Assembly (NCBI GenBank): GCA_025617745.1
Contig: CM046858.1
Coordinates: forward strand, 47,877,197 to 47,941,196
Length of the DNA: 64,000 bases
From: Heliocidaris erythrogramma
Lineage: Eukaryota > Echinodermata > Echinoidea > Camarodonta > Echinometridae
Reading direction: 5' to 3'
This document shows positions 17,975 to 41,650 of the stretch, one piece after another. The position numbers were made by a program, and so were the translations under genes. The notes under the pieces were generated by a model. The model searched no databases and was not told the DNA's origin. It worked only from the letters and a program-made list of their open reading frames with translations. The first letter of the stretch is position 1. Every line of letters starts with the position of its first letter.

Positions 17975-18222
17975 GGTCCGCTCGCTATTCATAAGGACCA
18001 CTATTCATTTAACACGTTTTACGAATAGCGGTCCTTATGAATAGTTATGAATAATGGTCCTTATGAACGGAGGTCCTTATGAATAGCGAGGTAATTTGTA
18101 TATGGTTTGCTTGCTATTCATAAGGACCGCGATTCATAAAAAAAACCCTGCTCTTCATTTAGTTACACGTTATGGATAGTGGTCCTTATGAAAAGCGGTC
18201 CTTAGGACTAGCGAGGTTACCC
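17975..18222. mobile_element. Short foldback-family MITE with perfect 8-bp target duplication
   Basis: Flanked by CCGCTGAT at 17967-17974 and 18223-18230. The uninterrupted LINE frame (MSADDTIS) is restored when the insert and one copy are removed. The ends GGTCCGCTCGCTATTC and (reverse strand) GGGTAACCTCGCTAGTCC match those of the 17.3-kb segment at 20681-38005. The interior is made of GCGGTCCTTATGAATAG-like repeats in both orientations. Eight-base duplications and repeat-built arms fit foldback (TU-like) elements. Confidence 0.85.
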
Positions 18223-18357
18223 CCGCTGATGATACCATTTCAATTTACACCCAACCTAACACTCATAATTTACAAAATAATATTTATATTGAAATAGAAA
18301 AAGTAACAAAATGGTTCAAATTAAATAGATTGTTGATAAATCCTAGAAAAACAAATT

Positions 18358-18708
18358 ACATAATAATAATAATATTCAGTTTTTATATAGCGCCTAATAC
18401 ATCGAGGATGTCTCTAAGCGCTTTACAGATATATTATTACCCCGGTCATTGGATTCTGGCACGCCCGCACACTGTATGCACATTCTCCACTCCCTGGGGA
18501 GCATTCCAGCCAGTCGCCTGTTAAGCGCACACATGCTAAGCAAAGGACATTAACTTTCGCCATCCTACCGGGTACCCATTTAACACCTGGGTGGAGAGTG
18601 GCAAATGTAGATTAACGTCTTGCCAAAGGACGCTAGTGCTGCGGTGGGATTCGAACCCCGGACCTCATGGTTCACAGTCCGGGGACTTATCCACTGATCC
18701 ACAACACC
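18358..18708 (-). mobile_element. tRNA-derived SINE (family 1), copy 1
   Basis: On the minus strand it starts GTGTTGTGGATCAGTGGATA (A-box region), with B-box GGGGTTCGAATCCC and acceptor-like GCAGCAC, which can pair with GTGTTGT. The body is about 97% like the copy at 22741 by eye. The 3' tail differs: GGCGCTATATAAAAACTG followed by (TTA)n. The central motif CCTTTGGCAAGACGTTAAT is at 18611-18629. Inserted in LINE-D. Confidence 0.9.
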
Positions 18709-19215
18709 TCTACATTACATTAAGTTCTTCCATAGGCAGTCTAATTTAACTGATTCACTTGATAGTTTACCTCTTAAAATCAACAATGATCCTTTAAATA
18801 AGGTGAATAGTGTTAATTTTCTAATGGGGTATACACTGATTATAATATGCATTGGGATACACATGTCAATAAGGTCACTCAAAAAGTATCTAAATGTATT
18901 GGTATTTCGTATAGATTAAGAGACTCGCTTCCGGCTTCTGCTTTAATACTATTATATAATTAATTTATGTTCTCATACCTAAATTACTGTGCTGCTGTTT
19001 GGGGCAATTATAGTCGAACTAAATTAGATAAATTATTTGAATTACAGGAAAGGGCGCTTCGCATATGCCTGGGATGTCCCTATCGTGCCCCTTCTGCCCC
19101 ATTGTTCAAAAATTGAAATCTCTCAATATTTTTGATTTGAACTATTACCTTGCTCTCCTTGATTTCTTTTACTTTGAAAATAAATTACCCTCAAATATTT
19201 CTCAAATGTTCACTT

Positions 19216-20229: not shown

Positions 20230-20680
20230 TTTGAGAGAGTCATCTGCAATAGGGTTAACACGTAAACGCATGGATTTTAAGAATGATTAGAGTTCCTCTA
20301 GTATTACTTTGAATTTAGTGAAATATGGCTTACATGTAATTTGAGACTCTGAAAAAGCTTAATGAAGGCTCAAAAAGTGGAAGGGACCCCGCATAAATCA
20401 CCGGGAATATGCATGCTTTTGGCCTTCCAGCTTCCAAAGGTTAACACGCAAACACAGGTATTTTCGAATGGTTATAATTCCCCCCAAATAAAAATAAGAT
20501 TTTGAAAAATGTTTCTTAAATAAAATTTAAAGCTCTGAAAATGCATAATTCAGACTCAACTCGTCGAATAGACCCAGCATAAATCCCCGGGAATATGCAT
20601 GCTTTTGGCCCGCCCACCCCCCAAGTTTCGCCTGCCATAGGTTTACACGCGAAAACAAGGAATTTTAGGATGATCATAAT
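20230..20680. repeat. Satellite of about 185 bp (left flank of the 17.3-kb insertion)
   Basis: About two and a half units. Markers recurring in each are TTAACACG(T/C)AAAC, a GATTTT/TATTTT...AATTCC block, TTACATGTAATTTGAG, CTCTGAAAA and GGGAATATGCATGCTTTTGG. The last unit breaks off at 20680 and its missing remainder is found at 38006-38130. Confidence 0.8.
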
Positions 20681-20769
20681 GGGGTCTGCTCGCTAGTCAT
20701 AGGGACCACAATTAAAAAAAAAAGGACCGCTAGTTATAATAAAACATAATTTTCCCTATTCATAATATG

Positions 20770-21335
20770 AAAAGAGGGTCGCTATTCATTAAGGTCGATA
20801 TTCATAACGGTCGCTATTCATAATCGAAGAAGATGGTTGCTATTCATAATCGGGGGAGAGGGTCGCTGTTCATAATCAGAGAAGAGGGTCGCTATTCATA
20901 ATCGGAGAAGAGGGTCGTTATTCATAACCGAGGCAGGAGGTCGCTCTTCATAATCGGAGAGGAGGGTCGCTATTCATAATCGGAGAAGAGGGTCACTATT
21001 CATAATCGGAAAAGAGGGTCGTTATTCATAACCGGAGAAGAGGGTCGCTATTCATAATCGGAGAAGAGTGTCGCTATTCATAATCAGAGAAGAGGGTCGC
21101 TATTCATAATCGGAGAAGAGGGTCGTTATTCATAACCGGAGAAGAGGGTCGCTATTCATAATCGGAGAAGAGGGTCGCTATTTAATCGGAGAAGAATGTG
21201 GCTATTTTTAATCGGAGAAGAGGGTCGCTATTCATAATCGGAGAAGAGGGTCGTTATTCATAACCGGAGAAGAGGGTCGCTATTCACAATCGGAGAAGAG
21301 GGTCGCTATTCATAATTAAAGAAGCGGGTCGTCAT
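20770..21335. repeat. Left array of the 26-bp repeat
   Basis: About two dozen head-to-tail units with core AGAGGGTCGCTATTCATAA followed by TCGGAGA. A variant unit with TCGTTATTCATAACCGG recurs at about 20914, 21018, 21121 and 21249, spacings of four, four and five units, so the array has a higher-order structure. Confidence 0.95.
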
Positions 21336-22400
21336 TTAAATCAAATAAGAAAGGGAAATGGATGGAGGACAACCCAACCGTACTGTATTTAAGAAAGCCT
21401 TAGAATGCATTTCCCGCTTTTGTCAAATATATCCTTATTTTCTTTTAAAGTGATCTATATTTATCAATGCTCCCCACACTTTGAAAGGCGCTTTGCCAGT
21501 GCCTTAATGATTAAAAAACGATGTCTAATCTATACATCTACGTGGGAGGAGAGGACCCCCTCCCCCTCCACACACCCACACACACAGATCCAGATCCTCC
21601 CGTTTCTCAACTCCTGTGGAGACCCTAATCCTTAGACTTTTCTCAAGTTCCAATTCTCAAGTGGGATTGTCGTATGGGGTAGTTGTCCTGGAGATTAGAT
21701 GTAGTGGGTAGTTGTCCGGATACGGGCTTAGAAATTGCCGCGAGAGAAATTTGTTTTTTTAAATATTTTTTTGGGGTGGGATATCAAGCCCTCTTAGCAA
21801 TATTTTCATAATACGTGATTTTAGTAACGTACAATTTATTGGCATCTACCGTTCTTAGTCTGCCCCTATTTATGGCCACGGACGTGGGAATGAACTATGC
21901 CCTCCTCCCGCGGTTGCATGGGACTTTCAAATTTTCCCTGAGTTAAAATCACCTTTCAGAGCATTTGAATGCATGAGGTTTCATGGTAATTACTAACTTG
22001 CTTAATTTCATTATTTTCTTTGAAATCTTTATTTCGGTCTTCCTAATCATAATAAAACAAAATTATGAATAATAATCATCATGGTCATCCTCCTCCCTCC
22101 TCCTGATCATATTATTTGATCATGTCATTTATTGAATGTGAATTATTGCGGGGGCAGGAGGAGGGTGATGATACAGGCCAATCCTACAGGCCACACCCCC
22201 CTCCTGAATTGTTTGGGGAATATATCACACATCCTGCCCCTCCTGGGATACTGATACCCATGCTTCCATAGCATTTAAAATATAAATTCTACTACTAGAA
22301 CCGTCGTTTATGAACTCCTCTTGAAAAAAAAGTGCAGGGTATACATGTATATATCGTATCCGGACAACTACCGCCAGACAAGTACCCCCTTAGGTCAACT
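21336..22400. repeat. Interior segment with an 18-bp inverted pair
   Basis: GGTAGTTGTCCGGATACG at 21707-21724 recurs inverted at 22355-22372, about 650 bp apart. Looser related copies lie just outside (GGGGTAGTTGTCCTGG near 21676; CAACTACCCCCAGGAC near 22387). This may be a small element with terminal repeats. No gene seen. Confidence 0.6.
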
Positions 22401-23444
22401 ACCCCCAGGACATCTCTGCCTTATGTTTGTTCATATTTTCATCCTTTTATCTTTTCTTCTGTACTAAACTTAATATTGCTTTATCTTTCTGCATTTGTTT
22501 TCCCTAATGTTATTCTTTGTTTTAGTATCATTTATCTTTATCTTTCCTTTATTTTTCCCCCTTCTTCTTGATTTGTATCCTTCCCTTTATCTCTTTCTTC
22601 TTCTCTTTTCTTTCCTTTTTTTTTGCTTATATTATTCTTTGTTTTGGGCTTTCTTTCATCTCTTTCTGTCCTTTCTCATGTTATTCTTTGTTTTGATCTT
22701 TTTTCATATTCTCTTGTTGACTTCTCTCATGCACTTTTAGGGGTGTTGTGGATCAGTGGATAAGTCCCCGGACTGTGAACCACGAGGTCCGGGGTTCGAA
22801 TCCCACCGCAGCACTAGCGTCCTTTGGCAAGACGTTAATCTACATTTGCCACTCTCCACCCAGGTGTTAAATGGGTACCCGGTAGGATGGCGAAAGGTAA
22901 TGTCCTTTGCTTAGCATGTGTGCGCTTACAGGCGACTGGCTGGAATGCTCCCCAGGGAGTGGAGAATGTGCATACACTGTGTGCGGGCGTGCCAGAATCC
23001 AATGACCGGGGGTAATAATTTGCGCCTTGAGCATCTAATCAGGATGGATAAGTGCGCTATACAAGTCACATGTATTATTATTATTATTATTATCTGCCTT
23101 TGTTCTTCTCTTGCTGTAGTTTGTTCTTTCTGACTTTCCCTATATTGTTCTTTGTTCCCTTCCTTTATCTTCTCTTGCTGTTTTCTTTGTTTTTTTCCTT
23201 CCATCATTTTGTCTTTTTTCTCTCATGTTTTCCTTTATTTTTTCCATCTTTCATCTCTTTCATCTTTTGTTTAACCCTACCCCTTATATTTTTTCATTAT
23301 TCCCCTTTCATCTTCGCTTTTGATTTTTCCTCTATCTCTTATTCTTTGTTTCTTCCTTTTATCATCTTCTCTATTCTGTCTTTCTATTCTAGCATCTTCT
23401 TCTCTTTCTTCCTTTTATGTTTTCAGTATTGTGACGACATTTAA
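22401..23444. other. Pyrimidine-rich low-complexity region, interrupted by a SINE
   Basis: C/T-rich plus strand (TTCTTTGTTTT-like runs) at 22401-22735 and 23095-23444. The long Phe/Leu/Ser-rich frames here are composition artefacts. Confidence 0.8.
22741..23094 (+). mobile_element. tRNA-derived SINE (family 1), copy 2
   Basis: tRNA-like head with A-box region GATCAGTGGATAAG and B-box GGGGTTCGAATCCC. Central motif CCTTTGGCAAGACGTTAAT at 22821-22839. Tail GTGCGCTATACAAG then (TTA)n. The body is nearly identical to the copy at 18358-18708, but the last 60 bp are unrelated to that copy's tail. Confidence 0.9.
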
Positions 23445-24428
23445 ACCTAACTGAGATCTAGGATGCGTTCATAGGTGCCGGAAGTGGGGGTGGGGTCACC
23501 CCCAACAAAAAGGTGGGGGCAAATCGCGTTTTCGATCTCCCCATATGCGTAAGTACATAATTTGGGGAGGGGCTGAAGTTTTTTGCCCGAATTTCAAGTT
23601 TCCCTTTTCTAGGTATGAGCGAGAGAAGCGAGAGAGAAAAAGATTTCGACATTTTTGTAGTGAAAATGTACAAAAAATACATGTATTCCAGTATTAAACT
23701 ATCTAAATATGAGGATATTTGAGCAACTCGCTGCCCGTAATGAGGTGATAGTTGAGCCAATATTGCCCTCTCAAAATCCTCAAGGGGCTGCAGCCCTTCG
23801 TACGCCTATACTTCCTCCAAGTTACGGAATTGTACAAGCTAGGGAGCAAAGCGATTTTTTTATTTTGGCATTTTCAAGCTGCAAAAACGTCATTTCTTAT
23901 TCGATGTACCAAGGAACATTCGCAAATAACCACTGCGATCTAGGCCAAGATCCAAATATTGAACACTGATAAAAGTTCGTTTTCTTTCTCAAATGGGGGC
24001 ACGACACTGACGGAACAAGTGAGAAATAATCAAGCAATTTAGGAAGGCCACCGTTGATGTTTCTTTCAAATGTATATAGAACATTTAAAAATGCGATTTT
24101 ATATGCTTTAACATCATTATACTGGGGAAAAATATTGAAAAACAAAACGTAACTCGTACTAACTACGAGGGGGTATGGGGCACGTGCCCCGCAAATCAGA
24201 TGGGGAAAAAAGAAAATAATGAAAGAGGAGAAGAGAGAAAACATGGGGGATAGGAAAAGGAAAAGAAAATAAGACAATAATTGGACCCCTTTTTGCTTTT
24301 CTTTTTGTTTTGTTCAAGCGGACCCTGCTCGCCAGCGCCCCCCCCCCCATAATAAGGGCCTGTGTATCCTGGATTGTCTGTGTTTGCTTTGAACTAATTT
24401 CAATTCAATCCAAACAATTCCTAGATAA
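23445..24428. other. Interior sequence, no gene seen
   Basis: Mixed sequence with G-run and C-run relics (23485-23520, 24340-24350). The short open frames show no family signature. Confidence 0.4.
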
Positions 24429-25392
24429 TTAAAGGAGCTACTCGGAGATGTACAAAGACATCAAAATGCAATAAATTTGGTATCAACGGAAAGGGGAAGA
24501 TGCCCTAAAACATTCCATCAACATTCGAAATCCATAGGTGTTCATAAATTAATATTATTATGTTTCAAATGTGGGCCGAAATATTCGCATATTTCCGCCC
24601 GCGAGGAGTTTCTTTTTCAACCCTGGAAATGTGACGTCATACACGGGACGAGTCCTGTCTAAGCAGACGATGTCCCATAACATCTTACACATTTTTCAGT
24701 GCCTGTTTTGTCATCTCCTCTTCATTTATTTCTCTTACTTGACTAGCGTCAGTCTTAATGTTAGTCTGTTGCCTCACTGTTAACTTCGTGTATGGTATTA
24801 TTTTGATGAAAAATGCAGCGTTAAAAAAATAAAGGAATCAGTCACTTGTAAACAAAATAAGACGCCATTGTATTTTCAGCTGCTTGCACCGGGGCATGTT
24901 CGGTGTTTCAAGAGGGAACGAATACCATCTATGCTATTATTCGGAGGGCTTTTCAATTTGAAAATGAGGTTTATTTCATTGATCACTGACCCTTCTCCTG
25001 TGTATTTGCAATCAAACGGATTTAGTTATCAGAATCAGGTCACTTTCCCTTTTAGAATGGTGTGAAATAAGGTCATGTTTAAATGTACCAAACTCTTTAT
25101 AATTTGATAAATAATTGCATTGCAATTACGTTCATTCATTATAGGACGTCGTCTGCTTAAGCAGGATTGGTCTCAAGTGTGACGACATCAAAACATCGCT
25201 ATATTTCTGGCGAATCCTCGGATATTCCAGATGCTTAGAAGAGCTTTTATTTATGTTGTTTTTATAATCATCAGATACGCAGTTGACATAAAACTTGTAC
25301 GATTGCCATCTGTAAGCTTCCCAGTTTCTCGTGATACATTAATTGCCATTATTTGTGATTTTCGTTGGATTTTCTTTGGATAGCTACTTTAA
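24429..25392. mobile_element. TTAA-type element, copy 1 (partner at 48928-49867)
   Basis: TTAA at 24429-24432 and 25389-25392 with ends AGGAGCTAC and (reverse) AGTAGCTAT. Internally an imperfect inverted pair TCCTGTCTAAGCAGACGATG (24653) and CGTCGTCTGCTTAAGCAGGA (25146) encloses about 510 bp. From 24653 to about 25365 it is about 95% identical by eye to 49139-49850; the left 200 bp are unrelated to the partner copy. Non-coding, Kolobok/piggyBac-like by target site. Confidence 0.75.
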
Positions 25393-25574
25393 TCAAAACT
25401 AGAATTTAATTCGTCATGACGACGAATTAGGTGGTCTGTCTTTCAATTTGTATGATCATGATCGTAATCAGGATGATCATAATAATGAGGAAATACTAAA
25501 CTGAAGATAGGAAGTCAAGAATGCCATGAATGGAGATGCTTCTTGAGGACAGGAATGTAGCAAAATGTGTGAAA

Positions 25575-25920
25575 CGGTCATTGTAAAATGATTATGGTGA
25601 TGATGATAATGGTGATGATGATGAAGATGATATAATGATGGTTATAATGATTATGATGATATAATGATGATGGTGATGATATAATAATAATAGCGATGAT
25701 GATCATGACAGTGATGATAATGATGATGATGATGATGTAATGATGATTATGATGGTGATGATAATCATGATAATGAAGGGGATAATGATGAAGATTGATG
25801 ATGTGATAATGGTGATGATTATGGCGATGGTGATTATGAAGATGATTGATGATATAATGATGATGATGGTGATAATGATGATAATGATGGGGATAATGGT
25901 GATGACCATGACTGCAATGA
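25575..25920. repeat. Imperfect (GAT)n microsatellite
   Basis: ATGATG/ATAATG triplet array about 350 bp long. Met/Asp/Ile-only translations are artefacts. Confidence 0.95.
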
Positions 25921-26149
25921 CAGTGACCTTAACCATGCCAAATATGAAAGAGAAATCACATTTCGTTATGAAGATACGACCATAAGTTGATTTGTACAAA
26001 ATGGCGCCTAGATGACGTCACGATAACCTGATGACCTTGAAAAAGATGCGGGAACTTGACTTTATTAGGACCGATGACTGACGAAAATTTGAAGATAATT
26101 GAGTAAGCCAATTTTGAGAAATTGTAATATCAAATAGGACTAATGATAT

Positions 26150-26960
26150 TGCAGGATAGCTTTAATACACTTCAGGGAATCAGATTTTCCATAGGGTTAT
26201 ACATAACTACTGCACACTACTTTCTAATAGACATAACACGCAAAATAAGGCATTTTATTACTTGGTTTGTGATTGCTTATGTTATAATAGTCGAAGAAGA
26301 TGGTAAAATGAAAGGCAAAAAGAAGCAAAAAAAAAAAAAAAAAAAAATTAATGGCCCCACCGGGGATCGAACCTGGGTCACCGGAGTGAGAGGCAAGTGC
26401 TTTGACCAATATACCAAAATATTTCCCATAGAGATAACACGTAAACGAAAAACGGGATTCTCAAATCCCACTTTGGAGTGAAAAATTGGGCATGATTCCG
26501 ACATCTCATCAAAAATTGGAGACCACACTTATAAAAGCTTATAGTCTCAGCTATAACATACTAAAATCTGGAAGAAAATAGAGCAAAAACAACTGAGATA
26601 CAGCTCAGAGAACAATGTCATGTAGATTCATGATTCGAAAAAAATTCATCTTCCATAGACATAACACGCAAATAGGGAAAATTCTGACATGGCATATTTA
26701 ATTGAACATTTAACTGTGATGACGTCATCGAAATGAAAAATGGTGGCAACTGATTTTGTAGGAAATTGCCTCGGCTACAACATATTAAAATCTGGGCGAA
26801 AAACGACCAATAATTACGAATCTAGAGCCAGATTTGCATAAATGTGAGACGTCAAAACATGAAAAATGGAAATTTTGAATTCTGGCGCCATTTTGATGAC
26901 GTCATAATGTTTATAAGGGTCAAATGATACATGAAATCATATCTATGATTCATCCCCTAC
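26150..26960. repeat. Tandem repeat of about 226 bp
   Basis: CTCAGCTATAACATACTAAA (26546) recurs as CTCGGCTACAACATATTAAA (26772). The motif ATAACACG(C/T)AAA recurs near 26234, 26434 and 26662. That motif resembles TTAACACG(C/T)AAA of the satellite flanking the 17.3-kb insertion, so the two arrays may be related. Confidence 0.65.
26349..26418 (-). mobile_element. tRNA-like sequence with T-run, probably SINE head
   Basis: The minus strand reads TGGTATATTGGTCAAAGCAC (A-box-like), then CCAGGTTCGATCCCC (B-box) and GGTGGGGCCA, followed within a few bases by a run of more than 20 T. The 5' side does not pair with the acceptor-like 3' end, so it is not a functional tRNA. Confidence 0.55.
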
Positions 26961-26999
26961 CCAAAGAGGAAAAAAAATTGGGGGGGGGGGGGGGGTTTG

Positions 27000-27400
27000 T
27001 GGACTATTTAAAGAGCTAGAGTTAATTATGTAGAGGCATGTTTTTGCACGTTTTTACGTTATTTTCGCCATAGACGCGCGCACGGATTTTGAACTTTGAC
27101 GCGCCCGTACGACCTTATTATTGATTAAAATTGATTCCAAGTTGATGGAAATGATGAACAAAAGTGTCAGGATTGCAAATCAATCGAAAAAAACAGCGTT
27201 TTAACGTTATTTACGACTTGCGCGCGCGTAAAACGCGCGCGCGGACGCTTACGCACGGACATTTTTGAAATGCTCAAAATGACCTGAAACGTGTGCAGAC
27301 TTGATCCTACGTGATTTTGAGCATTTTTAAATTTTGACGCGCGCGTACGCGCACGTCCTGACCTCTAGATGACCTGTGAGGACATGACTTGATGACCCGT
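27000..27400. other. CpG-rich alternating purine/pyrimidine stretch
   Basis: Runs such as GCGCGCGTAAAACGCGCGCG and GACGCGCGCGTACGCGCACG lie in an otherwise AT-rich region, with a repeated TTTTGA...GACGCGC block at about 27088 and 27328. No coding potential seen; Z-DNA-prone composition. Confidence 0.6.
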
Positions 27401-27551
27401 CAAGTGAAGTTTATGTGATGTGAATATAGTTGATTTTCGATGATCGATTATGAAGATATAATCGATGTATACAATTAACTAATGTATAGCATCAACGTGA
27501 CATTATTCCATCAGTGCCAAATTTAATGGTATACTGTAAAGCATACTGCTT

Positions 27552-27806
27552 CAGTGGCGTATCCAGGATTTCCCAATAGGGGGGGCTCCAGGAATTATTG
27601 ATCGCCGTCATGGGGGAGGGGTCTTTTTTTGCTTCTGAAGAAGGGCTGAGATGCAAATAGTGCTATATGTGACCAATTTTGAAGCCTATTTAATGAACAA
27701 TATTTTCAATTGGTATGAGGATTTTTTTTTTTTTGCTATTTTTTTTTTACGACGGCCAATAGGGGGGGGGGCGCGCGCCTGTTGCGCCCCCCTGGATACG
27801 CCCCTG
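27552..27806. mobile_element. MITE with CAGTGGCGTATCCAGG termini
   Basis: The left end CAGTGGCGTATCCAGG and the reverse of the right end CAGGGGCGTATCCAGG are near-perfect inverted repeats. The direct flank CTGCTT is at 27546-27551 and 27807-27812. Subterminal G-run on the right. hAT-like by termini, though the duplication visible is six rather than eight bases. Confidence 0.75.
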
Positions 27807-27817
27807 CTGCTTGCATG

Positions 27818-27967
27818 CAAACAACCATAGGACCAACGGCTTTAAGTCCTCTCCGAGGGACCTGGGGTTAATGCCTTACCAAAGGACACGAGTGCATCCT
27901 GGTTTCGAACCGGGTCCTTCAATTATAAAGCCACTGCCCGACCATGTACCACTGAGCTATCTCGCCC
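27818..27967 (-). mobile_element. tRNA-derived SINE (family 2)
   Basis: Minus strand: GGGCGAGATAGCTCAGTGG (A-box), GGTTCGAAACC (B-box), then CCTTTGGTAAGGCATTAA (27868-27885), the central motif shared with the other SINEs. Related to 63465-63690. Confidence 0.75.
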
Positions 27968-28144
27968 TTTCTGAGGATTATGGACATGATAGAGCTGATG
28001 GCAACACCAACTACAGCACCCCCACCCGCACACAGACTATGCCATTTATGAATTACTTTCACGAAAATTGTCAGTACTATGTGCTTGTACCGAGGCAAGT
28101 TGGGTCGAATGGCGCAACGTGGTCGGACTGATTGGATGGGGTGG

Positions 28145-28445
28145 GGCACAGGGGCGTAGCCAGGATTTTTCAATAGGGGGAGGGCGCAAACGTGAAGGAC
28201 CCAACCCCGTTTTTTAGGGCGCGTTTGTGAGCACGCAAAGCGTGCTTCCCAAGGGGTTGGTGTAGGGATGGGCAGTCCCCCCCCCCCTCCCGCGCGAAGC
28301 GCGAAAGCTCTGACGTTTTAATAGCAAATTTGGCTCGTAGCACCTACTGTAGACAGAAAGTTAGTTCGACGTCAATTATTGTCAATTATTTGGACACAAT
28401 AATGCACTGTATGTAATAGGGGTGGGTGCAGGGAGGGGGGGGGGG
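28145..28445. repeat. Single copy of the CAGGGGCGTAGCCAGG / GCGAAGCGCGAAAGC repeat
   Basis: Begins CAGGGGCGTAGCCAGG, then a GCACGCAAAGCGTGC palindrome, CGCGAAGCGCGAAAGCTC, and ends near TGTATGTAATAGGGGTGGG and a G-run. The same order occurs at 52373 onwards, where the unit is amplified. Confidence 0.75.
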
Positions 28446-28452
28446 GGGGTGT

Positions 28453-28885
28453 AGACCCCACAAATGTAAAAATCAACCACAAATGTAAAAATAACCACAA
28501 ATTTAAAAACATTGCACGGGCAAATGTCTAAATAACCACAAATGTCATAACATGTCAATCACAAATGTAAAAATAATAACAAATATAATAAAAATTGCCC
28601 ACAAATGTAAAAATCTGTTTAGCCACAGATGTAAAAAAAATTCGCCTACAAATGTAAAAATTTCCATTTTTATCTCAAATGTCATAACATGTCGACCGCA
28701 AATGTAAAAACTCATTGCTTGCTTAATGTACCCATGTAATTTATAAGTTATTATGAAATGTATGTGTTTTTGCGCGTGTATGGGTGTGTGAGAGGTTTTC
28801 CTGACCATTAAAATCCCTAAAATATTGAAACACCCTTTACCACAAATGTCAAAAAATGTCAACGACAAATGTAAAAATTTATTAA
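28453..28885. repeat. Minisatellite of CCACAAATGTAAAAAT-type units
   Basis: About two dozen 14-22 bp degenerate units. Related short arrays are at 36046-36195 and 36718-36782. Confidence 0.85.
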
Positions 28886-29327
28886 ACTAGTCGTTTACTA
28901 GTGGTTTCCCTTTTTATGATCAGTTTACAGAGACGGAGGTCGAAGAACTAATCATAAACTTCAATGGCAAGAAAAAATCAGATAATCCATCGATCTCTAC
29001 ATAGAACAGCAACTAATACGATTCCAGTGAGGGTAATTAATATTGTATCTCCCGAAAGTAGCCAGTCCATATCATTATTATTAACAGAATCAGACGTCTA
29101 GAGCGAACTCGAAAATATTGTAAAAATAAAATTTATTGCCCGCTATTTAACACGCAGAATCCCATATTGACTTTCGAAACCGCGCAATAAACAATTTATC
29201 GGCCCGCGATTATGTTACCTTGGCAAAGCCGGGCAATAAAATGTAAATATTGCATTGCTCAGATGTCTGATATGGTTAATTTTTAAAATCAGCACTGATT
29301 TTCTTATTTACTATATAAATCTATATA

Positions 29328-29471
29328 CCTACCTATTATGCCTGTAGTCTTGACTACGGGACCCCTTCGAGAATTATCACACATGTGTCACAATATTGTG
29401 CGCACCCCCCGTAATCCTATTGTCCCCTTCGCCACTCACGCGCGTCAATACGCTACGGCCATCTTCCTCTT
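29328..29471. repeat. DIRS 3' inverted terminal repeat
   Basis: Perfect reverse complement of 35302-35445 over 144 bp; imperfect similarity continues outward to 29285. Confidence 0.95.
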
Positions 29472-29531
29472 TTGCGAGCAACCCCAAGAAGAAACATGTT
29501 GCTTGCAAGGAGCGGGGAAGGAGGGAGGGTC

Positions 29532-29625
29532 ATAGGTAGGTATATAGATTTATATAGTAAATAAGAAAATCAGTGCTGATTTTACAAATTTACTGCAATA
29601 AATCATATATACCTACCTATTATGC
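29532..29625. repeat. DIRS internal complementary region
   Basis: 29532-29583 is the exact reverse complement of the left extreme end 29286-29337. 29587-29625 is the reverse complement of the right extreme end near 35432-35470. It is thus a joined image of both termini. Confidence 0.9.
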
Positions 29626-29716
29626 CAGACCAGCGCCAACTCAAAGACCGGGAGGCATGTTTCGAGCGGAAGGAAATAGGATTACACCAACGACTACAAA
29701 GAAGACACAGCGGCCT

Positions 29717-30790
29717 TCAAGGTGGCTGACGCAAACAAAGCCTCACCTGCGGGAATATAAGGTAGCAAGAAATGAAGGAATTGGGCGAACGCCAATAAGC
29801 AGCCTTCAAAATATCAACAAGCGCCACACCTTGAAACAGAGCCCAAGAAGTGCTGACACTACGAGTATCATGAGCACGAGGCTTACTGTCGGATAAAAGA
29901 GCCTCTGTGCCAGCGGCCCTAATAGCTTCAACGATCCATCTAGAAATGGAATCAAGAGAGGCAGGAGAAAAAGGCTCTCTAGTGATCAGGAACAACTGAT
30001 CATCCTTACGATAAGACTTAGTCTTATCAATATACCATTTGAGAGCCCTAACAGGACACCAAACTTTGTCCTCACGCACCGAAGAAAAGTCAGAAAGCGG
30101 ACAAAGAAAAATCTCAACAGGACCGGAGGTAGCTGTCTGATTCTTGGCAACGAAAGAAGCCCTAGGAATCAACCTAACACCTTTTCCCTCCCAGCGAACA
30201 TGACCAGGAGTAAGACAGAGAGCATGAAGAGTACTGCGCCTCTGCCCAGAGGCAATAGCTACCAAAAAGAGCGTCTTAACCGTAAGATGATGAAGCGAAG
30301 CTTCACCTAACGGTTCAAAAGGAGGTTTCGCCAAGGCCTCCAGGACCTTAGGCAGACTCCAAGACGGCACTAACTTAGAAAACGAAGGTCGTTTCAGAAA
30401 GAACGAACGAATCAAACCACTTAGCAGCGGGGAATTGGAAATCCCCGAACCATCCGAAAAACCCGAATGGATGGCCCCGATCGCCGAACGGTAGCCTCGG
30501 ATAGTAGAAATAGATCTCCCTTTGTCAAATAACGAGATTAAGAAATCCGCAATTGAACCAATAGGAGCCTTAGAAGGGGTTTGATTTCTCTCTTTGCACC
30601 AAAGGAAAAAGACCGAGAGACGGGAATTGTAAATTTCCCTAGTAGAGACCCTACGACTGGACATTAAAAAGTCCGCGGCTCTATCAGAGAGACCCGACTG
30701 TCTTGCAGATTCCCTGACAGGGGCCAAGCAGTCAAATGAAGAGACTCCGGATTGTGGTGAAGAATCCCCGATAGGGGCTGTAACACCAGA
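29717..30790 (-). CDS. DIRS tyrosine recombinase
   Basis: The C-terminal part of a long open frame. Recognisable N-terminal core-binding part: STREIYNSRLSVFFLWCKER, ISTIRGYRSAIGAIH. Catalytic domain: GQRRSTLHAL (first Arg), HDTRSVSTSWAL (H-x-x-R), ISCYL (Tyr nucleophile). It would integrate the circular DNA intermediate. In DIRS elements this ORF overlaps the RT ORF in another frame; here the open frame is continuous upstream with the RT frame (see finding), so its true start cannot be fixed. I give 30790 as the approximate limit of conserved sequence. Confidence 0.85.
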   Translation of the reverse strand, partial: SGVTAPIGDSSPQSGVSSFDCLAPVRESARQSGLSDRAADFLMSSRRVSTREIYNSRLSVFFLWCKERNQTPSKAPIGSIADFLISLFDKGRSISTIRGYRSAIGAIHSGFSDGSGISNSPLLSGLIRSFFLKRPSFSKLVPSWSLPKVLEALAKPPFEPLGEASLHHLTVKTLFLVAIASGQRRSTLHALCLTPGHVRWEGKGVRLIPRASFVAKNQTATSGPVEIFLCPLSDFSSVREDKVWCPVRALKWYIDKTKSYRKDDQLFLITREPFSPASLDSISRWIVEAIRAAGTEALLSDSKPRAHDTRSVSTSWALFQGVALVDILKAAYWRSPNSFISCYLIFPQVRLCLRQPP

Positions 30791-31186
30791 TCCGCTCTTA
30801 ACGGGAGAACTAACGGTTGAGCCCTTAGAAGGCTCATAAGTTCCGGAAACCAATTCCTCCTGGGCCAAAAGGGAGCTATTACAAGCACCCTCGCCCGATC
30901 TTCCCTGATTTTCCGCAAGGCACGCGGAATCAGTTGGAAGGGAGGAAAGGCGAATCCCTGAAGGTTCTCCCAGCTGAGGGAGAAAACATCGAGAGCCCAT
31001 GCTCCCTGATCGCGAACACGGGAGCAATACTTCGGCAGCTGGTGATTTAGCACCGACGCAAATAGATCCACTTCCAGTGGACCTAGGCAACTGCGAATGC
31101 GGCAAAATACCTCCGGATGGAGCATCCATTCCGATGGAAGATACCTGCCCCGGGACAGAAAATCCGCAATGAGGTTTTCCCGACCC
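30664..31186 (-). CDS. DIRS RT-RNase H ORF, C-terminal continuation after a +1 frame break
   Basis: In the frame shifted by one base from the RT frame, the minus strand encodes NLIADFLSRGRYLPSEWMLH, then LEVDLFASVLNHQLPKY, FPPFQLIPRALRKI and VLVIAPFWPRRNWFPELM, ending HLTAWPLSGN and a stop at 30664. This is the conserved tail of DIRS RT-RNase H proteins (the region that carries a methyltransferase-like domain in some members). It overlaps the recombinase frame, as is normal for the group. Confidence 0.8.
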
Positions 31187-32701
31187 GGGGATGAAAGAGG
31201 CCACGGGTGTGATTGCCATGCGACGACACCACCTCCACAGCTGAGCTGCTAGGGCATTCAAGGCAACCGAACGAGTGCCTCCCTGCCGATTGATATATGC
31301 CGCCACAGTAACGTTGTCCGTGAGAATCAGAACCGAACGACTGAGAAGTCGACTTCTGAAATGGAGCAAGGTCAACAGAACTGCCATAAACTCCAGGACA
31401 TTGATATGAGGAAGAGTCCCAAGATGAGACCAATCCCCCGCAACCGTGCTGCCGTTGCAGTGTCCTCCCCACCCCAACCCAGAGGCGTCCGTCGAAACCG
31501 ATATCGACGGAAGAGGGACAGAGAAGGACCTGCCTCGCGCGAGAAACACCTCGCTCGTCCAACAAGCGAGAAGAGACTTGATCTTTACTGGTACTGGAAT
31601 CCAGACCAAAAGAGAGTCTTTTCCCGGCTTGAAGAACCTGAGGAGATGTCTCTGAAAGGGTCTCATGAGGAGCCGGCAGTCCTCTAAAACATCGACTAGA
31701 CTGGCTAGATAACCTAGAAACTGAAGCCACTGTCTGGCCGAGACTCTTCTGGCCAGCAAGAGCTTGCGAGCCGCAGAGACAATGGTGAGAATCCTGTCTC
31801 GACTGGGCCGAGCTAACTGATTCCTTATGTCTAACACCGCCCCCAGAAAAACTGGGCTGCGAGTGGGGACTAACTCTGACTTTTCCCAATTTATTAGGAA
31901 ACCTAAGTCTTGAGTAAGAGAGACGAGCAAACGAGTCTCGTCCAACAAACGATCGCGCGACTCCGCAAGGAGAAGCCCATCGTCCAGGTAACAAAACAAC
32001 CGCAGGCCGCGACGCCTCAGAAAGGCCGCTAGCACCGCTACAACTTGAGTAAAAACCCGAGGGGCCGGGCGCAGCCCGAAGGGAAGAGCCCGAAAACGAT
32101 AAGTCTCCGAGAGGAAGGAGAACCCCAGAAGATCGCGAGATGCGCGATGAATGGGAATGTGAAAGTACGCGTCCTTGAGATCTATCGAGACCGCGTAGTC
32201 TTCCCTTTTGATCAACGGAAGAATGGAGGCAAGAGTCTCCATCCGAAAATGAACCGGAGGAATAAATTTGTTTATCCTCTTTAGGTTCAGTATCAAACGA
32301 AGTTTTCCCGAGCGCTTGGGAATAACAAATATTGGAGAAAGGGAAAGAGACGGCCTGTCTCTTACCCTTTCTATAGCCCTCTTTTCCAAAAGAGACTCGA
32401 TCTCCTTCGAAGCATGAGACCGAGACAGGGCAGACATGGGAGGTGACCGAATTCTTATAGCCCCTCCGGGGAGCGAGGCGCAAAGATCTATGAAGAATCC
32501 GTCTCGCACGACGGAGAGAACAAACACGTCCCCGGAGATGGCCTCCCAAGCGGGGAGAAACGCATGAAGTCGGCCACCTACCACATTCGGTCGAACAAGC
32601 GCTCGGGGAAAAACATCAAAATCCAGGCTTGGCCTTCTGCGAAGCCATCGCCTTACCACGAGAACCTCTCGAAAAGCCCCTGCCACGACTCCCTCTCCCA
32701 C
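31184..32701 (-). CDS. DIRS reverse transcriptase-RNase H
   Basis: The open frame begins at 32701, overlapping the gag end by 86 bp. RT motifs: LILNLKRINKFI, VSIDLKDAYFHIPI, ALPFGLRPAPRVFTQV, catalytic YLDDGLLLAES. RNase H: SVSTDASGLGWGG, VLEFMAVLL, LILTDNVTVAAYI. The frame then reads into FIPGSG at 31184-31190, whereas family logic requires FIPGREN, one base out of frame. The element therefore carries a one-base insertion in the CCCCGGG tract, or uses frameshifting. Otherwise the catalytic residues look intact. Confidence 0.88.
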
Positions 32702-34879
32702 GAGACGGAGCTGGCTGAGGCTCAGGAGGCGGGACCCTAGACACGCGACTGCGTTGACCCGAAACGGGACCAGCAGGTCTACGCCGAACAGGGGCCCGCG
32801 TTGGCTTAGAGCTAGTGTGAAACTGCTTAGTCATATCCGAGATCTGCTTTCGCGCATCGATCTCTCTTTGAAACACCGTAGCGAATTTACCACCAAAAAG
32901 CGAAGGACCCCGAGACGGAACATCTCGGAGAAGTTGAGCAATGCCCGACTCTCTAACACCCAGTGCTGAGAGAGCCGAGGTCCTGCGACGGAACGTAGCC
33001 GAAGCAGCTGCTGTGGAAAGCTGCGACCACTGCAGACAAAAAAGAGTATGCAGCAAGTCGTCAATAATCAGCTTGTCACCATCGGTAACATTCAACTCCT
33101 CCGCCCTGGACCTAAGGTCGGAGAGAAGCCCTTGAAAAGCCGCCAAACGCATCCCTGACCTAATGTGGTTTTCAATATTAGACCAAATCTTATCCTCCGC
33201 CCTGAACGCAGCGGAGGTAAGCGGATTAGTCGCCCGCAAGCGACGACCAACCTCTAAAATCTCAGGAGAAAGAATCTTAGCCTTGAAAAAGCTGTCTTGG
33301 TCCTGAGAACAAAAGGCAAAGGCCTTACCCCTGACCGCATTAGATCGCTTAACCAACACCGCGGCCTCAATGCGGTCATACTCCAGCTTGAAAACCTCCT
33401 CAAGAGCAATACCCTCAGAGGAGACCTGCTGCTTGAAATTCCAACGCGAAGTCGAACCCTGCGCGCGGGTTGACTGAACTTCAGGGAGATATTTGGACAA
33501 CAAAGCAATCGCTTCCACTCCACAGAGATTGAGCGATTGAGACTCCGCCTGCCCAAGCGATTCGGGAACCGAAGCTTGAGAGGACGCATCCAAATCTGGT
33601 TCCACCCGAGTGGAATGAGACAAAGGAACGCTAACAAAGGCCTCCGCAGGCGGGTCCCCGCATGGTTCACCAAAAGTCTCCTCGCCCGGCGGAGCCCCGA
33701 GGGCCGCGGGAATAGGAGGCACATGCGAATCAGTCTCAGACAAAGAGGAATCAATCACAAAAGGCTGATTAGACTCAAAGCGAGATCCCTGAATAGGGAC
33801 AGAAGTCAGGGTTGAAGAAGCCGGTACAAAGGACCAACCCTGATTCTGAGCAAAAGCCCGCATCATACTGAACATGTCAGCTTGAGAGGAGCTAGCCGGG
33901 TCAGCCAGGCCAGACGGGCAAGAGGCCGGCAAAGCCTTGCCGCTTTTCGCCTTCTTCTTGGCCTTTTTCTTGGCTGGCTCGACAAGAGTCGTAGCCGAAA
34001 CCCTTTTCTTAGAACGCTTAATCGGATTCGTTCGGATCCCCGAAGCCTCTTCGGAAACACGAACCGATCCCTCCGCGGAGGGACGTTCACTTCCCATAAA
34101 GGGATTGGAGCGCTCATGGCGTAAGCCTAGAGAATCGCCCAAATCACCCATATTGGCTAGGCAAGAAGATGCCATAGCCATGGGTTGGGAGCTAAAAGCT
34201 CCCAGTGCGTGGGCAGACCGAGATGACTCGGTATGTGCCCGATGACTACTAAAGGCATGTGAACCCACTATTGGACCGCTCGAAAGCAGCAATAGGGGAG
34301 CACTAGTAGTCACGCACTCAGGTGAAAACACCTGTTGCTCCGAAGAGCGTCCATAATTGTTAGCTCGAGCATTCCCATCAGCTGGCAACTGAGACAGCCC
34401 AGAAAGTACTCGTTCCCCCATATGGCGTTTGCCGGGGGCTAGGGTTTGAGAACCCAGACCAACATGGACTAAGCCCGTGGGTTGCCCTGCAGTAGTGGGG
34501 CGCGTCTCCCCTAACGGATCAGAGCGAGTGAACGCTACCGTACGGGAAACAACAGCCCCCCCCCCCCCTCTGGTCTCAGCGACCGGGGGATTGGATTCGA
34601 GATATCCAAACCACTAGAATCTGACGCCACCCACCCCGAAACCACAGGCTTCGGAGTTGACAATCCCGATTCAGTTAACGCCACCCGTCCCGAAGCCGCA
34701 AGCTCCGAAACTGGCAAACTCTGCAAGGGAACACCACTAGGCAACTTACCTTTAGCCCTCCTCCCTCCCCCGCGTACCGCTGTACTCGGGGGAGTTCTGG
34801 AAGGCCGAGTCGTCTTGCTAGACAACTCTTCGGAAGAAGCAGGTCTCCTTGACCCAGCTGCTTCTTCTTCCGAATTCAT
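32616..34879 (-). CDS. DIRS gag-like ORF1, interrupted by a 13-base C tract
   Basis: The start ATG at 34879 (MNSEEEAAGSRRPASS) is followed by a proline/serine-rich N-terminus. The frame breaks at the C13 tract 34556-34568 (G13 on the coding strand) and continues in another frame to 32616. Features include a lysine-rich KKKAKKKAKSGK, acidic middle, the segment LGVRESGIAQLLRDVPSRG, and an Arg/Gly-rich C-terminus (RGRGSRGRGFSRGSRGK), likely nucleic-acid binding. DIRS gag proteins package the RNA. The break may be slippage in the homopolymer, real or a sequencing artefact. Confidence 0.8.
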
Positions 34880-35301
34880 ACCACTGCAATAAAACAGACA
34901 ATAAAGTATACTTTTCAAATTAAGAAATACTTCAACTGAATGCAGTAAATAAAACTAAAGTTTATTTGGGAGATACGCACTAAAGAAATTTTCACAGCCT
35001 AAAAACCGTAAGAACAAACACCGAACCCGAAGGCTCGGTGACAAACGGAAACACCCGCAAACACGGAAATATCTACGTGGGGCTGACCGTGAAAGAGAAA
35101 ACTAAATGCCAAGAAAGGGAATCAAAAAATCCCTTGCAATCGGCAAGAGTGACTAATAAAACACAAAGTACTATAATCTAAACGAATATAGGTACCTAAA
35201 AGTGCTTTAACTATGTGAAAAAGCGCACCAAAAAGATACTATACGACCTGATTTCAGGAGCGCTGTGACTATACGTCCTAACTCGTCGGGGGCGAGCAAG
35301 A

Positions 35302-35445
35302 AAGAGGAAGATGGCCGTAGCGTATTGACGCGCGTGAGTGGCGAAGGGGACAATAGGATTACGGGGGGTGCGCACAATATTGTGACACATGTGTGATAAT
35401 TCTCGAAGGGGTCCCGTAGTCAAGACTACAGGCATAATAGGTAGG
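35302..35445. repeat. DIRS 5' inverted terminal repeat
   Basis: Reverse complement of 29328-29471; imperfect similarity continues outward to about 35470. Confidence 0.95.
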
Positions 35446-35636
35446 TATATATGATTTATTGCAGTAAATAATACTTTTTTATTCACGCGATTTTTAATGA
35501 TGAAATATTTGAGAAATGCCTGAAACCTGAATGTTATCGTTTCAATCTATAGTGATAATCAAATATAACACAAATGTAGAGGGCCTACACTATACGACGT
35601 ACGTTGTTGTTTGGATTAAAAATTAAAGGGGGTTTA

Positions 35637-36865
35637 TTGCCACTTGGTCTACAGCCAGTTGGTCGAATACCAATTGGTCTAACATCATTCGGTCTAATAT
35701 TAGTTGGTATAATAACCAATTGGCCTAATCATCATTTCGTCTAATTACCATTTGGTCTATAGTCAATTCGTCTAATATCCATTTGCACCCACCCCTGATA
35801 TATGCAGTGCAGTATTGCGTCCAGTAATTGAAAAGCAGTCCGGGTGTCGAACTAACTTTGCTACATGTACGAGCCGCCATCTTATTCTCAAATTTGCTAT
35901 AAATCGTCAGAGGTTTCGGGCTTCGCGTGGGAAGGGGAAAACTTGTAAACCAGTCTGGGCGCCGAACTATGCCTATAACTTTCCGCCTAAAAAAGAAACG
36001 TCAGAGCTTACGCGCTTTGCGCGGGGAGGGGGGCACCCTGCAAAGCCCACAAATGTAAAAATCAACCCCAAATGTAAAAATTACCACACTTGTAAAAACA
36101 TTGCACCCGCAAATGTCAAAATAACCGCAAATGTCATAACATGTCAACCACAAGTGTAGAAACATTTCGCCCACAAATGTAAAAACTCATTTCTCCTCGA
36201 GATTTTAATGATGAAATATTTGAGAAATGCCTGAAACCTGCATGTTATCGTTTCAATCTATAGTGATAATCAAATATAACACAAATGTAGAGGGTCTACG
36301 CTATACGACGCACGCTGTTGTTTGGATTAAAAATAAACGGGGTGTATTGCCACTTGGTCTATAGCCAGTTGGTCTAATACCATTTGGTCTAACATCATTC
36401 GGTATAATATTAGTCGGTATAATATTAGTTGTTATAATAACCAATTAGCCTAATCATCATTTTGTCCAATTACCATTGGGTCTAATTGTCATTTCGTCTA
36501 ATTACCATTTGGTCTATAGTCAATTCTTCTAATAGCAATTTGCACCCACCCCTGATACATAAAGTGCGTATTGCGTCCAATAAATGAAAAGCATTCCGGG
36601 TGTCGAACTAACTTTTATTCTCAAATTTGCTATAAATCGTCAGAGGTTTCGCGCTTCGCGTGGGGAAGGGGAAAACTTGAAAACCAGTCTGGGCGTCGAA
36701 CTATGCCTATAACTTTCCGCTACAAATGTAAAAATGCCCATTTTACCACAAATGTCATAACACGTCGACCGCAAATGTAAAAAGTTATTATGGTAAATTG
36801 TAACTTGGTCTAATGCCAATTGGTCTAAAAACCAAATGGTCCAACATCATTTGGTCTATTCGTCT
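35637..36865. repeat. Duplicated block with TTGGTCTAAT minisatellite arrays
   Basis: Arrays of 14-17 bp units of the type CCAATTGGTCTAAT/CATTTGGTCTAATTA lie at 35637-35790, 36350-36545 and 36790-36865. They are separated by inverted copies of the GCGAAGCGCGAAAGC repeat (35790-36030, 36545-36720) and ACAAATGTAAAAA units. The 35490-35800 and 36205-36560 blocks are a direct duplication of about 700 bp period. Confidence 0.85.
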
Positions 36866-37156
36866 TTTTAGGCTTTTTCCTCTCACTTCCTCCTCATTTC
36901 GTTCTCGCCCTTTTTGTAAGAGCTGAATAAGGGGGGGGGGGGGAGGGGCATGGCCCCCCTTGGTCCGCCTGGCTAATCCGGGGGTGTAATTGTTTCATCG
37001 CCCCTACCCATATTGCTTTGACACAGCCGTGGGGGTGTCTCCCATCCAATATTATAACATTGTTTGCTAATCTAATTCTTCCATACTTGAGTGCTTCATT
37101 GAACACTGAAAATTATATTCCAGTATTTTACAAATAATCCTAAACCTAACCTTTAC
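36866..37156. other. Interior sequence with a G-run element relic
   Basis: Contains GGGGGGGGGGGG near 36931 and GGCCCCCCTTGG near 36951, relics of the G-run MITEs. No gene seen. Confidence 0.5.
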
Positions 37157-37935
37157 TTCGATTATGAATAGCGACCCTCTTCTTCAATAATGAATGGCGA
37201 TCCTCTTCTTCAATAATAAATAGCGACCCTCTTCTCCGATTATGAATATCGACCCTCTTCTCCGATTATGAATAGCGACCCTCTTCTTTGATTATGAATA
37301 GCAAATCTCTTCTTCGATTATGAATAGCGACTCTGTTCTTTATGAATAGTGACCCTCCTCCCCGATTATGAATTGCGACCCTCTTTTCGACTATGAATAG
37401 CGACCCTTTTCTTCGATTATGAATAGCGACCCTCTTCTCCGATTATGAAAAGCGACCATCTTCTTCGATTATGAATAGCGACCCTCTTCTTTGATTATGA
37501 ATAGCAATCCTCCTCCCCGATTATGAATAGCGACCCTGTTCTTTGATTACGAATAGCGACCCTCTTCTCCGGTTATGAATAGCGACCCTCTTCTTCGATT
37601 ATGAATAGCGACCCTCTTCTCCGATTATGAATAGCGGCCCTCTTCTCCCATTATGAATAGCGACCCTCTTGTCCCATTATGAATAGCGACTCTCTTCTCC
37701 GATTATAAATAACGACCCCGATTTGATATTATGAATAGCGACCTTCCATCTGTATTATGTATAGCGACCCTTATGACTTATTATGAGTAGCGGTCCTTAT
37801 GAATAATGAACCTTTTCTTCGATTATGAATAGCAACCCTTCTCTCCTATTATGAATAGCTCTCCTTATGAATAATGGTCCTTGAGTTTATCAATAGTGAA
37901 CCCCTTTTCGCTTTATGAATAGCGACCCTTCAGGT
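37157..37935. repeat. Right array of the 26-bp repeat (inverted relative to left array)
   Basis: About 28 units of GATTATGAATAGCGACCCTC plus TTCTCC, more degenerate than the left array and with irregular units toward the right end. It is the reverse complement of the left array's unit. Confidence 0.95.
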
Positions 37936-38005
37936 ATAGGAAATTACACGTTATAAATAGCGGTCCTTATGAACCACTGGTCCTTAGGGCTAGCGAGGTT
38001 ACCCC

Positions 38006-38130
38006 ATTATAATTCCCATAATTTTTATTTGAAAATATAAAAAATGTGATTTACATGTAATTTGAGGCTTTGAAAAAACTTAGTGACCGCTTAACAAATT
38101 GAAAAGACCCCACATAATATTATATTTATA
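38006..38130. repeat. Resumed satellite unit (right flank of the 17.3-kb insertion)
   Basis: AATTCC...TTACATGTAATTTGAG...CTTTGAAAAAACTTAGTGA...GACCCCACATAA matches, in order and spacing, the corresponding part of the unit at about 20285-20395. Confidence 0.8.
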
Positions 38131-39792: not shown

Positions 39793-41650
39793 AATCAGAA
39801 AAGTCATATCTGATTTTATTATTTGCTAAATTGATGTATCTACCTATTATTGCTAGTTTGGTCCAACTACGCTACCATCGAGAAACTAAACGTCGCACTC
39901 GCGCACGCCCCACCCCCGTACGGCATGCACATTGCCATAGTCACATGCGCACGCGCACGACCGCCATCTTCCTCTAACGAGTTGCCAGAGACAACGTTTG
40001 GAACATGTTGCTTGGCAAGGAGAGGGGACGGAGGGGGGGGGGGGGGGCATAGGTAGATACATCAATTTATTTAGCAAATAATAAAATCAGGTATGATTTT
40101 TCTGATTTACTATAATAAATTAATGTATCTACCTATAGTCTATTGAAAGACTAGCAAGGATAAATTCCGGGGTGGCATGTCCCAAGGGAAGGAGACTAAC
40201 TAAAGACATGGATTCCCTTGAAGCAGGGGAGAAAGTTCACGAGTAATGAGGAACGTTGCTCGTCCGAGCGGCAGTTCATGGTTCTGTCTAAGTACCATTT
40301 TAGCGCCCTCACCGGACACCAGACTTTGTCCTCCTTGACCGAGGAGAAGTCTGATGGAGGGCTGAGAAACGCCTCAACCGATCCGGAGGAAGCCGTCTGA
40401 TCTCTGGCTACAAGGAGGGCTTGGGAATAAGGCGAACGCCTTGCCTTTCGCAACAGATGCGACCGAGAGAGGTACAAAGAGCAAGAATATCTGCCCGGAA
40501 GTAAGCTATAAGAAAAAGGTCTTGATAGACATGGAGAGACGCCTTGCTCATCAGAACAACGGAAGGTTTTGATAGCGCGTACGGAACCTTAGGAAGGTTC
40601 TAAGCAGGAGCCAGCTCGGATTTGCTGGTCGTTGTAAGAAAAACGATCTCAGCAACTTAGTCAGGTAATGGGAGCTAGAAACTCCCGGACCGTCCGGAAA
40701 GCCAAAATGAATGGCGGCGATGGCAGCGGTGTCCACGGATAGTGGAAAAGACCTACCCTTATCAAACAAGGAGATCAGAAAACTGCGATCGCGCCTACTG
40801 AAGCCTCACGAGGTGAAACCCCAAGGTCTTCAAACCAAACTGAAAAGGAGAGACGGGAGCTGTAAAGAGACCTCGAGGACTCTGAACTATACTCAGAGGC
40901 TCTCTCAGAGAGTCCCGAAGCCCTAGCGCCTCCCCCGAAAAAACGGCCAAGCGGTCAAGTGAAGGACCTCGGGCTGCTGATGGAGGATCCGAGAAAAAGG
41001 CCGAGACACCAGGCCTGGCCTCGGCGGGACGGAAACGGCTGTCCATCCAGAAGGGACAGGAGTAGGGGTCTAAGGTCCCATCGGTCAGCGCTCGATCCTC
41101 CTTGATCTTTCTCAGGATCTGAGGGAACAAATGAGACGGAGGGAAAAACACACCCCCGAAAGTGTCCCCAATGGAGAGCGAAGGCATCGAGTGCCCAAAC
41201 CTCCGGGTCCCGTACCCGAGAGCAAAAAACCCCGGAAGACGGTGGTTAAGAGCGGTCGCGGACAGATCAATCTCGAGCGGCGACCAAGTCGCGTGGAGAA
41301 GATCGCAAACCTCCTGATAGAGGGACCACTCGGATGGGAGACACTTGCCCCGGGACAGAAGGTCTGGTAAGATTTTCTTGTCCGGGAATGTAGGAGGCAA
41401 TCAGGACAATGTCGTTCGTCCGACACCACCTCCATAACAGGGCGGCCAGGAAGTTCAGGGAACTGAGCGAGATCCACCCTCAGGATAGATGTTGGCAGCA
41501 ACCGTGGTGTTGTCCGTAAGGATAAGCACGGAGAGAGCCCCCTAATCGTGCGCTTGAAATGGCGGAGCGACATGAATGCCGCCAGCATTTCCAGCATTTC
41601 GAGTTGGCAGCAGGTGAGCGATCTCCTGAAGGCGCATTCACATATCCCCA
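39793..41650 (-). mobile_element. Truncated DIRS element (family 2), 3' part only
   Basis: A terminal repeat (about 39833-40020), a G-run, then an internal complementary region (40049-40135) made of inverted terminal sequences including GGTAGATACATCAATTTA. These are followed by recombinase and RT-RNase H remnants on the minus strand. It ends abruptly at about 41650, so gag, most of the RT and the 5' repeat are missing. Same orientation as the complete DIRS. Confidence 0.8.

Follow-up and report, generated by a model that had tools for sequence, protein, structure and literature searches.

The analysed DNA is a 64,000-nucleotide stretch of the genome of the sea urchin Heliocidaris erythrogramma (assembly GCA_025617745.1, contig CM046858.1, positions 47,877,197 to 47,941,196), referred to below as the window. 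Positions 20681-38005 are occupied by a segment of about 17.3 kb with matching inverted termini and with opposed arrays of 26-bp units at both ends. The left terminus, at position 20681, reads GGGGTCTGCTCGCTAG, and the right terminus, ending at 38005, reads GGGGTAACCTCGCTAG on the reverse strand. Tandem Repeats Finder distinguished (i) a left array of 20.2 units of 26 bp (20809-21331, 86% matches) and (ii) a right array of 23.9 units (37156-37771, 82% matches), which is continued by further units outward to about position 37929. The two arms pair as inverted repeats, the longest pair comprising 384 nt with 83% complementarity, and the segment is flanked by the octamers ATCATAAT (left) and ATTATAAT (right), identical at 7 of 8 positions. 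The first-pass annotation of this DNA had given the same limits, exact to the base, and had noted the inverted termini, the opposed arrays and the flanking octamers, all of which are confirmed here.

We interpret the segment, with a probability of about 0.93, as a single old copy of a non-autonomous foldback-type DNA transposon of about 5.2 kb, which entered a single satellite unit, duplicating 8 bp of the target, and later grew to 17.3 kb by nested insertions. The features by which foldback-type elements are recognised were all found: long inverted ends built from short tandem repeats, a target-site duplication marking insertion as one unit, and a dispersed multi-copy family with a variable middle.

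The segment splits one satellite unit of about 190-200 bp, whose halves form its two flanks. The genome from which the window was taken (1.06 Gb) contains a bindin domain match (E 2e-68), absent from 14 control genomes, and bindin is a marker of echinoids. It was searched with the two flanks joined and one octamer removed (best 40 of 1700 candidates scored), and 73 of the 74 rows listed align to satellite units elsewhere straight across the join, with 73-97% identity, the remaining row being the window's own right flank. A satellite unit next to it in the left flank can likewise be aligned over the join (209 of 306 positions). Because the joined flanks match uninterrupted satellite units in this way, the segment is explained by a single insertion.

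The interior was compared, on both strands, with 13 complete copies of the same family with target duplications. Five stretches of the window (20681-22715, 23430-24413, 27816-28180, 28283-28449 and 36886-38004) occur in at least 2 of the 13 copies in the same order, and with low-complexity masking switched off 23125-23430 joins them (copies L010, L021 and L028). Copy L010 (5452 bp) is colinear with the window copy and shows the positions of the inserts; the length of the segment minus these inserts is about 5.2 kb, which is near that of L010. As a control, the flanks of the 13 copies were compared with the segment. The family stretches of the interior were matched once (102 bp at 28332-28433, in the flank of L022), and parts of the inserts were matched in other places, e.g., 24647-26534 and 29278-32386, which is what independent repeats would give. 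Since other complete copies have a colinear interior, the arms and the middle belong together. The one foldback insertion proposed in the first-pass annotation is borne out by the joined-flank matches, the octamer duplication and this colinearity; two separate insertions, which it had named as the contrary case, are rejected by the joined-flank matches and ruled out by the order of the interior, which agrees with that of the other complete copies.

Table 1. Features of the foldback segment and of a compact relative in the window.
Feature	Coordinates	Strand	Basis
Compact MITE-type relative, 248 bp, with duplication CGCTGATG at 17968-17975 and 18224-18231	17976..18223	+	repeat and end comparison
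Left copy of 8-bp target duplication, ATCATAAT	20673..20680		octamer comparison, joined-flank matches
Left terminus, decayed relative to young copies	20681..20776	+	probe matches, fetched copies
Left array, 16-bp steps at first, then 26-bp units	20777..21331	+	tandem repeat search
Family interior, colinear with other copies	21332..22739	+	comparison with 13 copies
Nested SINE (approximate limits; tRNA-like head read by eye)	22740..23093	+	L010 alignment, copy comparison
Family interior (approximate limits)	23094..24436	+	copy comparison
Nested block of ~3.0 kb (approximate limits)	24437..27455		absent from 13/13 compared copies
Family interior, seen in L010	27456..27552	+	L010 alignment
Nested small GC-rich element with inverted ends (approximate limits)	27553..27806		L010 alignment, copy comparison
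Family interior	27807..28408	+	copy comparison
Nested block of ~8.5 kb (approximate limits): tandem-repeat DNA and DIRS-like element	28409..36876		L010 alignment
DIRS-like retroelement, inverted ends 29304-29472 / 35301-35471 (97.7%)	29304..35471	-	repeat comparison
Family interior	36877..37155	+	copy comparison
Right array, 26-bp units, orientation opposite to left array	37156..37929	-	tandem repeat search, array reading
Right terminus	37930..38005	-	fetched copies
Right copy of target duplication, ATTATAAT	38006..38013		octamer comparison, joined-flank matches

Nested insertions and other repeats in the window

None of the 13 complete copies carries, on either strand, the short interspersed element (SINE), the ~3-kb block, the small GC-rich element or the DIRS-like element. 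The SINE is 97.5% identical over 283 bp to another, oppositely oriented SINE at 18433-18712. The ~3-kb block holds a trinucleotide microsatellite and a 734-bp repeat (24630-25363), whose second copy lies outside the foldback at 49118-49849 (95.4% identity). The retroelement in the largest insert encodes a reverse transcriptase domain within 29720-32827 and is termed DIRS-like on the basis of its layout, because no tyrosine recombinase domain passing the Pfam threshold was found in it. It is adjoined by a direct duplication at 35492-36720 (82% over 543 positions), possibly a part of the family's own middle in rearranged form. A diverged stretch at 40293-41532 is 64-65% similar to the DIRS-like element at 30033-31336.

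Two other features of the window lie outside the segment: (i) a 1145-aa frame on the minus strand (3329-6766), read by eye as that of a long interspersed element (LINE), with endonuclease and reverse transcriptase, near whose start there is a GDVQLNPGP motif that we take to be 2A-like, and (ii) a repeat pair (10457-11363 and 42461-43070) with 97.5-97.9% identity in two blocks, the first copy containing extra DNA between them.

A dispersed family with the same ends

A 151-base probe across the left end gave at least 77 matches in the genome, the window itself included (best 40 of 1131 candidates scored). Among the 77 matches listed, 37 begin at probe positions 21-34 (19 of these 37 exactly at probe position 32, which corresponds to window position 20681), and 39 are situated inside arrays. 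Genome-wide, the terminal 27-mer of the left end has 428 exact matches and that of the right end 1408, against none for the reversed control patterns. In the first 58.4 Mb of contig C1, a correctly oriented right end lies within 20 kb of 18 of the 26 left ends, and a wrongly oriented one of none (0/26; chance about 0.017 each). The spacing is 4.0-4.6 kb in 13 of the 18 pairs; the others measure 3.0, 6.3, 7.6, 10.1 and 11.7 kb, and a single right end serves for the two longest. The genome-wide search with terminal sequence, as proposed in the first-pass annotation, has revealed many other segments between the same inverted ends, mostly of 4.0-4.6 kb on C1.

For closer comparison 20 copies were fetched, namely those that match the left end of the segment best, not a random set. 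A right end was found within 9.3 kb in 15 of them, and these copies span 1850-8914 bp. The longest, L025 (8914 bp), carries a left arm of about 142 steps of 26 bp, i.e., about 4 kb of array. The flanking octamers are identical at 7 or 8 of 8 positions in 13 of the 15 bounded copies (14 of 16 with the window copy added), compared with 0 of 238 mismatched octamer pairs; the octamers of L011 and L016 require a one-base shift, and the same shift was granted to the mismatched pairs. Two of the fetched copies, L018 and L019, lie about 45 kb apart on contig C2 and have flanks that are identical as far as seen, as if duplicated with their surroundings. The family is a common sea-urchin element of the foldback type with a usual length of about 4-5 kb.

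The same ends also bound much shorter elements. Among ten right ends taken from the start of C1 that had no exact left end nearby, the motif of the other end was found 86-559 bp away in nine, and the octamers agree at 7 or 8 of 8 positions in seven (end shifts of up to 2 bases allowed; no mismatched-pair control). Miniature inverted-repeat transposable elements (MITEs) and long foldbacks have the same asymmetric ends. One such MITE lies in the window at 17976-18223 and, if its duplication CGCTGATG has been placed correctly, the GGG of its left end is missing. It sits in a LINE-like reverse transcriptase remnant (read by eye). The tip motif GGACCGCTATTCATAA recurs as the relative GGTCGCTATTCATAA within the 26-bp unit, and by analogy with the Galileo transposons both are regarded as putative transposase-binding sites.

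In an aligned stretch of the interior (573 columns), the identity of the window copy to a consensus built from 11 other copies is 0.906; among these 11 themselves, L010 scores 0.916 and the other ten 0.967-0.994. By eye, most of the fetched copies have almost the same termini. Recent mobility of the family is probable, because ten of the eleven copies are 96.7-99.4% identical to the consensus, and the window copy is judged from its divergence to be old, or to come from an older subfamily. Its inserts look younger than the copy itself by their identities (SINE, 97.5%; 734-bp repeat, 95.4%; DIRS inverted ends, 97.7%), which are not clock dates.

Mobilisation and history of the segment

The transposase matches in the genome comprise 52 Merlin, 31 Mutator-like (MULE) and 29 P-type domains. 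The first-pass annotation had suggested looking for a transposase-bearing copy; none with these ends was found, a weak negative, since the reading covered 16 of the 112 domain matches and about 1.5-3 kb of DNA to either side of each. Family ends or arrays were present at none of the 10 Merlin (DDE_Tnp_IS1595), 5 MULE and 1 P-type matches read. The 32 matches of the three kinds on contigs C1-C4 were compared in position with 98 exact left ends, and all are more than 15 kb away from each of these ends. The open frames of the 15 bounded copies (up to 5 each, at least 100 codons) include none that is transposase-like, although a gene interrupted by introns might escape such a reading. A Pfam scan of eight interior frames with 125 codons or more, taken from L010, L011, L012, L016, L021, L025 and L026 (the both-strand comparison found such frames in five of these seven copies), gave no transposase and a single match, the reverse transcriptase of a LINE nested in L021. 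Eight P-type loci (on C1, C3, C7, C8, C9, C16 and C17) contain 869-aa open frames of equal score, perhaps a recent P-element expansion; in the one locus read, the foldback family ends are not present.

Several transposase groups may be considered as the mover. The ends of hAT elements begin with a constant CA, and since the bases preceding GGGG differ between copies of the family, a hAT origin was rejected. P elements produce 8-bp target duplications. The published hallmarks of Merlin are 5' GG ends and duplications of 8 or 9 bp (PMC8101967), and both are found in the family; this combination appears to fit Merlin best, making it the candidate assignment. That a Merlin transposase moves the family, rather than a MULE, a P-type or another enzyme, is a tentative proposal, compatible with our explanation of the segment: the 52 Merlin matches in the genome speak for it, but the ten that were read do not lie between family ends, no match of the three kinds on C1-C4 is close to a left end, and the genome also has 31 MULE and 29 P-type matches, MULEs giving duplications of 8-11 bp (PMC6446971).

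In the mechanism that we propose, a DDE-type transposase acting in trans would cut at the GGGG ends, and the cut element would be joined to the target at an 8-bp stagger. The terminal motif GGACCGCTATTCATAA and its relative GGTCGCTATTCATAA from the 26-bp units may serve as repeated binding sites for this enzyme, and the arrays would lengthen and shorten through unequal exchange or slippage. The inserts would have arrived after the element had landed. The simplest history is that an element of about 5 kb was inserted first and was invaded afterwards.

The first-pass annotation had regarded the segment as a giant mobile unit with DIRS, SINE and MITE cargo. That two foldback arms moved the whole 17.3 kb, cargo included, in one transposition is very improbable. 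Such a composite would agree with the target duplication enclosing the whole segment and with the end spacings of 10.1 and 11.7 kb on C1, and Drosophila foldback pairs moving large DNA are on record (PMC6431247); however, the enclosing duplication is equally expected from a ~5-kb element inserting first, the arms enclose the DNA of a single ordinary member of the family, none of the four inserts occurs in the other complete copies (0/13), and 13 of the 18 spacings on C1 are 4.0-4.6 kb. Scarcely credible is a chance opposition of two independent arrays or elements, for which the family is common enough to provide accidental neighbours, but against which stand the interior colinear with complete copies, the flanks forming halves of one satellite unit, and the correctly oriented pairing of left and right ends on C1.

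Several observations weigh against a single ~5-kb element with later insertions, or narrow it. The target duplication of the window copy matches at only 7 of 8 positions, and L018 and L019 have none. Five of the 20 fetched copies have left arrays without a right end or opposed array within 9.3 kb, so truncated, rearranged or longer family copies exist, and the compared copies were picked as best left-end matches, not at random. The region to the right of the DIRS-like element (35472-36876), which includes an inverted relative of the repeat at 28283-28449, with further relatives at 52-54 kb of the window, matches 11 of the 13 copies in inverted orientation (82-397 bp); because this right part recurs, not all of the ~8.5-kb block is foreign, and its limits and origin are less certain than in the case of the other inserts. 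The succession of events is deduced from the absence of the inserts from the compared copies and from identities, not from an insert-free allele. Finally, we infer mobilisation in trans, because no transposase with the family ends was found.

Relation to described foldback elements

The system nearest by host is TU of Strongylocentrotus purpuratus, which was set beside the family by description and not by sequence. Foldbacks of this kind were reportedly described in sea urchins in the 1980s, and to our knowledge their transposase has never been named. TU resembles the present family in its sea urchin host, in long inverted ends made of short tandem repeats and in 8-bp target duplications, which are found in the window's family as well; it differs in its outer repeats of 15 bp, compared with 26-bp units and 16-bp steps near the tips here. 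As a term for architecture, the "TU-like" of the first-pass annotation holds. A literature search for TU elements in sea urchin found nothing; a sea urchin foldback is cited in PMC4079207.

Similar families are already in print. Tm1, a Mutator/Foldback family of root-knot nematodes (PMC3169594), likewise has composite inverted ends with a variable number of short motifs, asymmetric terminal motifs, MITE-like members, nested insertions and duplications of 8-10 bp. It differs in that one member encodes a MULE-like transposase, none having been found here, and in that its duplications are mostly of 9 bp, compared with 8 bp. In Drosophila virilis, the foldback Tetris and the MITE DAIBAM have common terminal ends, tandem repeats within the inverted ends, a non-coding middle and 8-10-bp duplications (PMC4079207). 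Their repeat unit is about 220 bp, in contrast to 26 bp here, and three structurally complete copies are described, in contrast to hundreds of exact ends. Galileo of Drosophila, a member of the P superfamily, has long inverted ends whose tandem repeats contain binding sites for the transposase (PMC3688188). It is likened to the window family by description, and differs in that its own transposase is known.

No paper on the present family was recognisable by its title or the start of its abstract, in a search that did not cover subscription papers and Repbase. It is possible, although we hold this with less than even confidence, that the family is an undescribed, recently mobile one, in which the 16-bp putative binding motif of a MITE was amplified into foldback arms of 26-bp units, which is moved in trans, and whose same two asymmetric ends bound elements from MITEs of 86 bp to foldbacks of nearly 9 kb.

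At this locus, an apparent giant foldback transposon resolves into an ordinary element and nested insertions. MITEs and long foldbacks with common ends occur together in a single genome, which may contain the material for finding the transposase of sea-urchin foldbacks. A recently mobile family of this kind could serve to ask why tandem arrays accumulate inside inverted ends.

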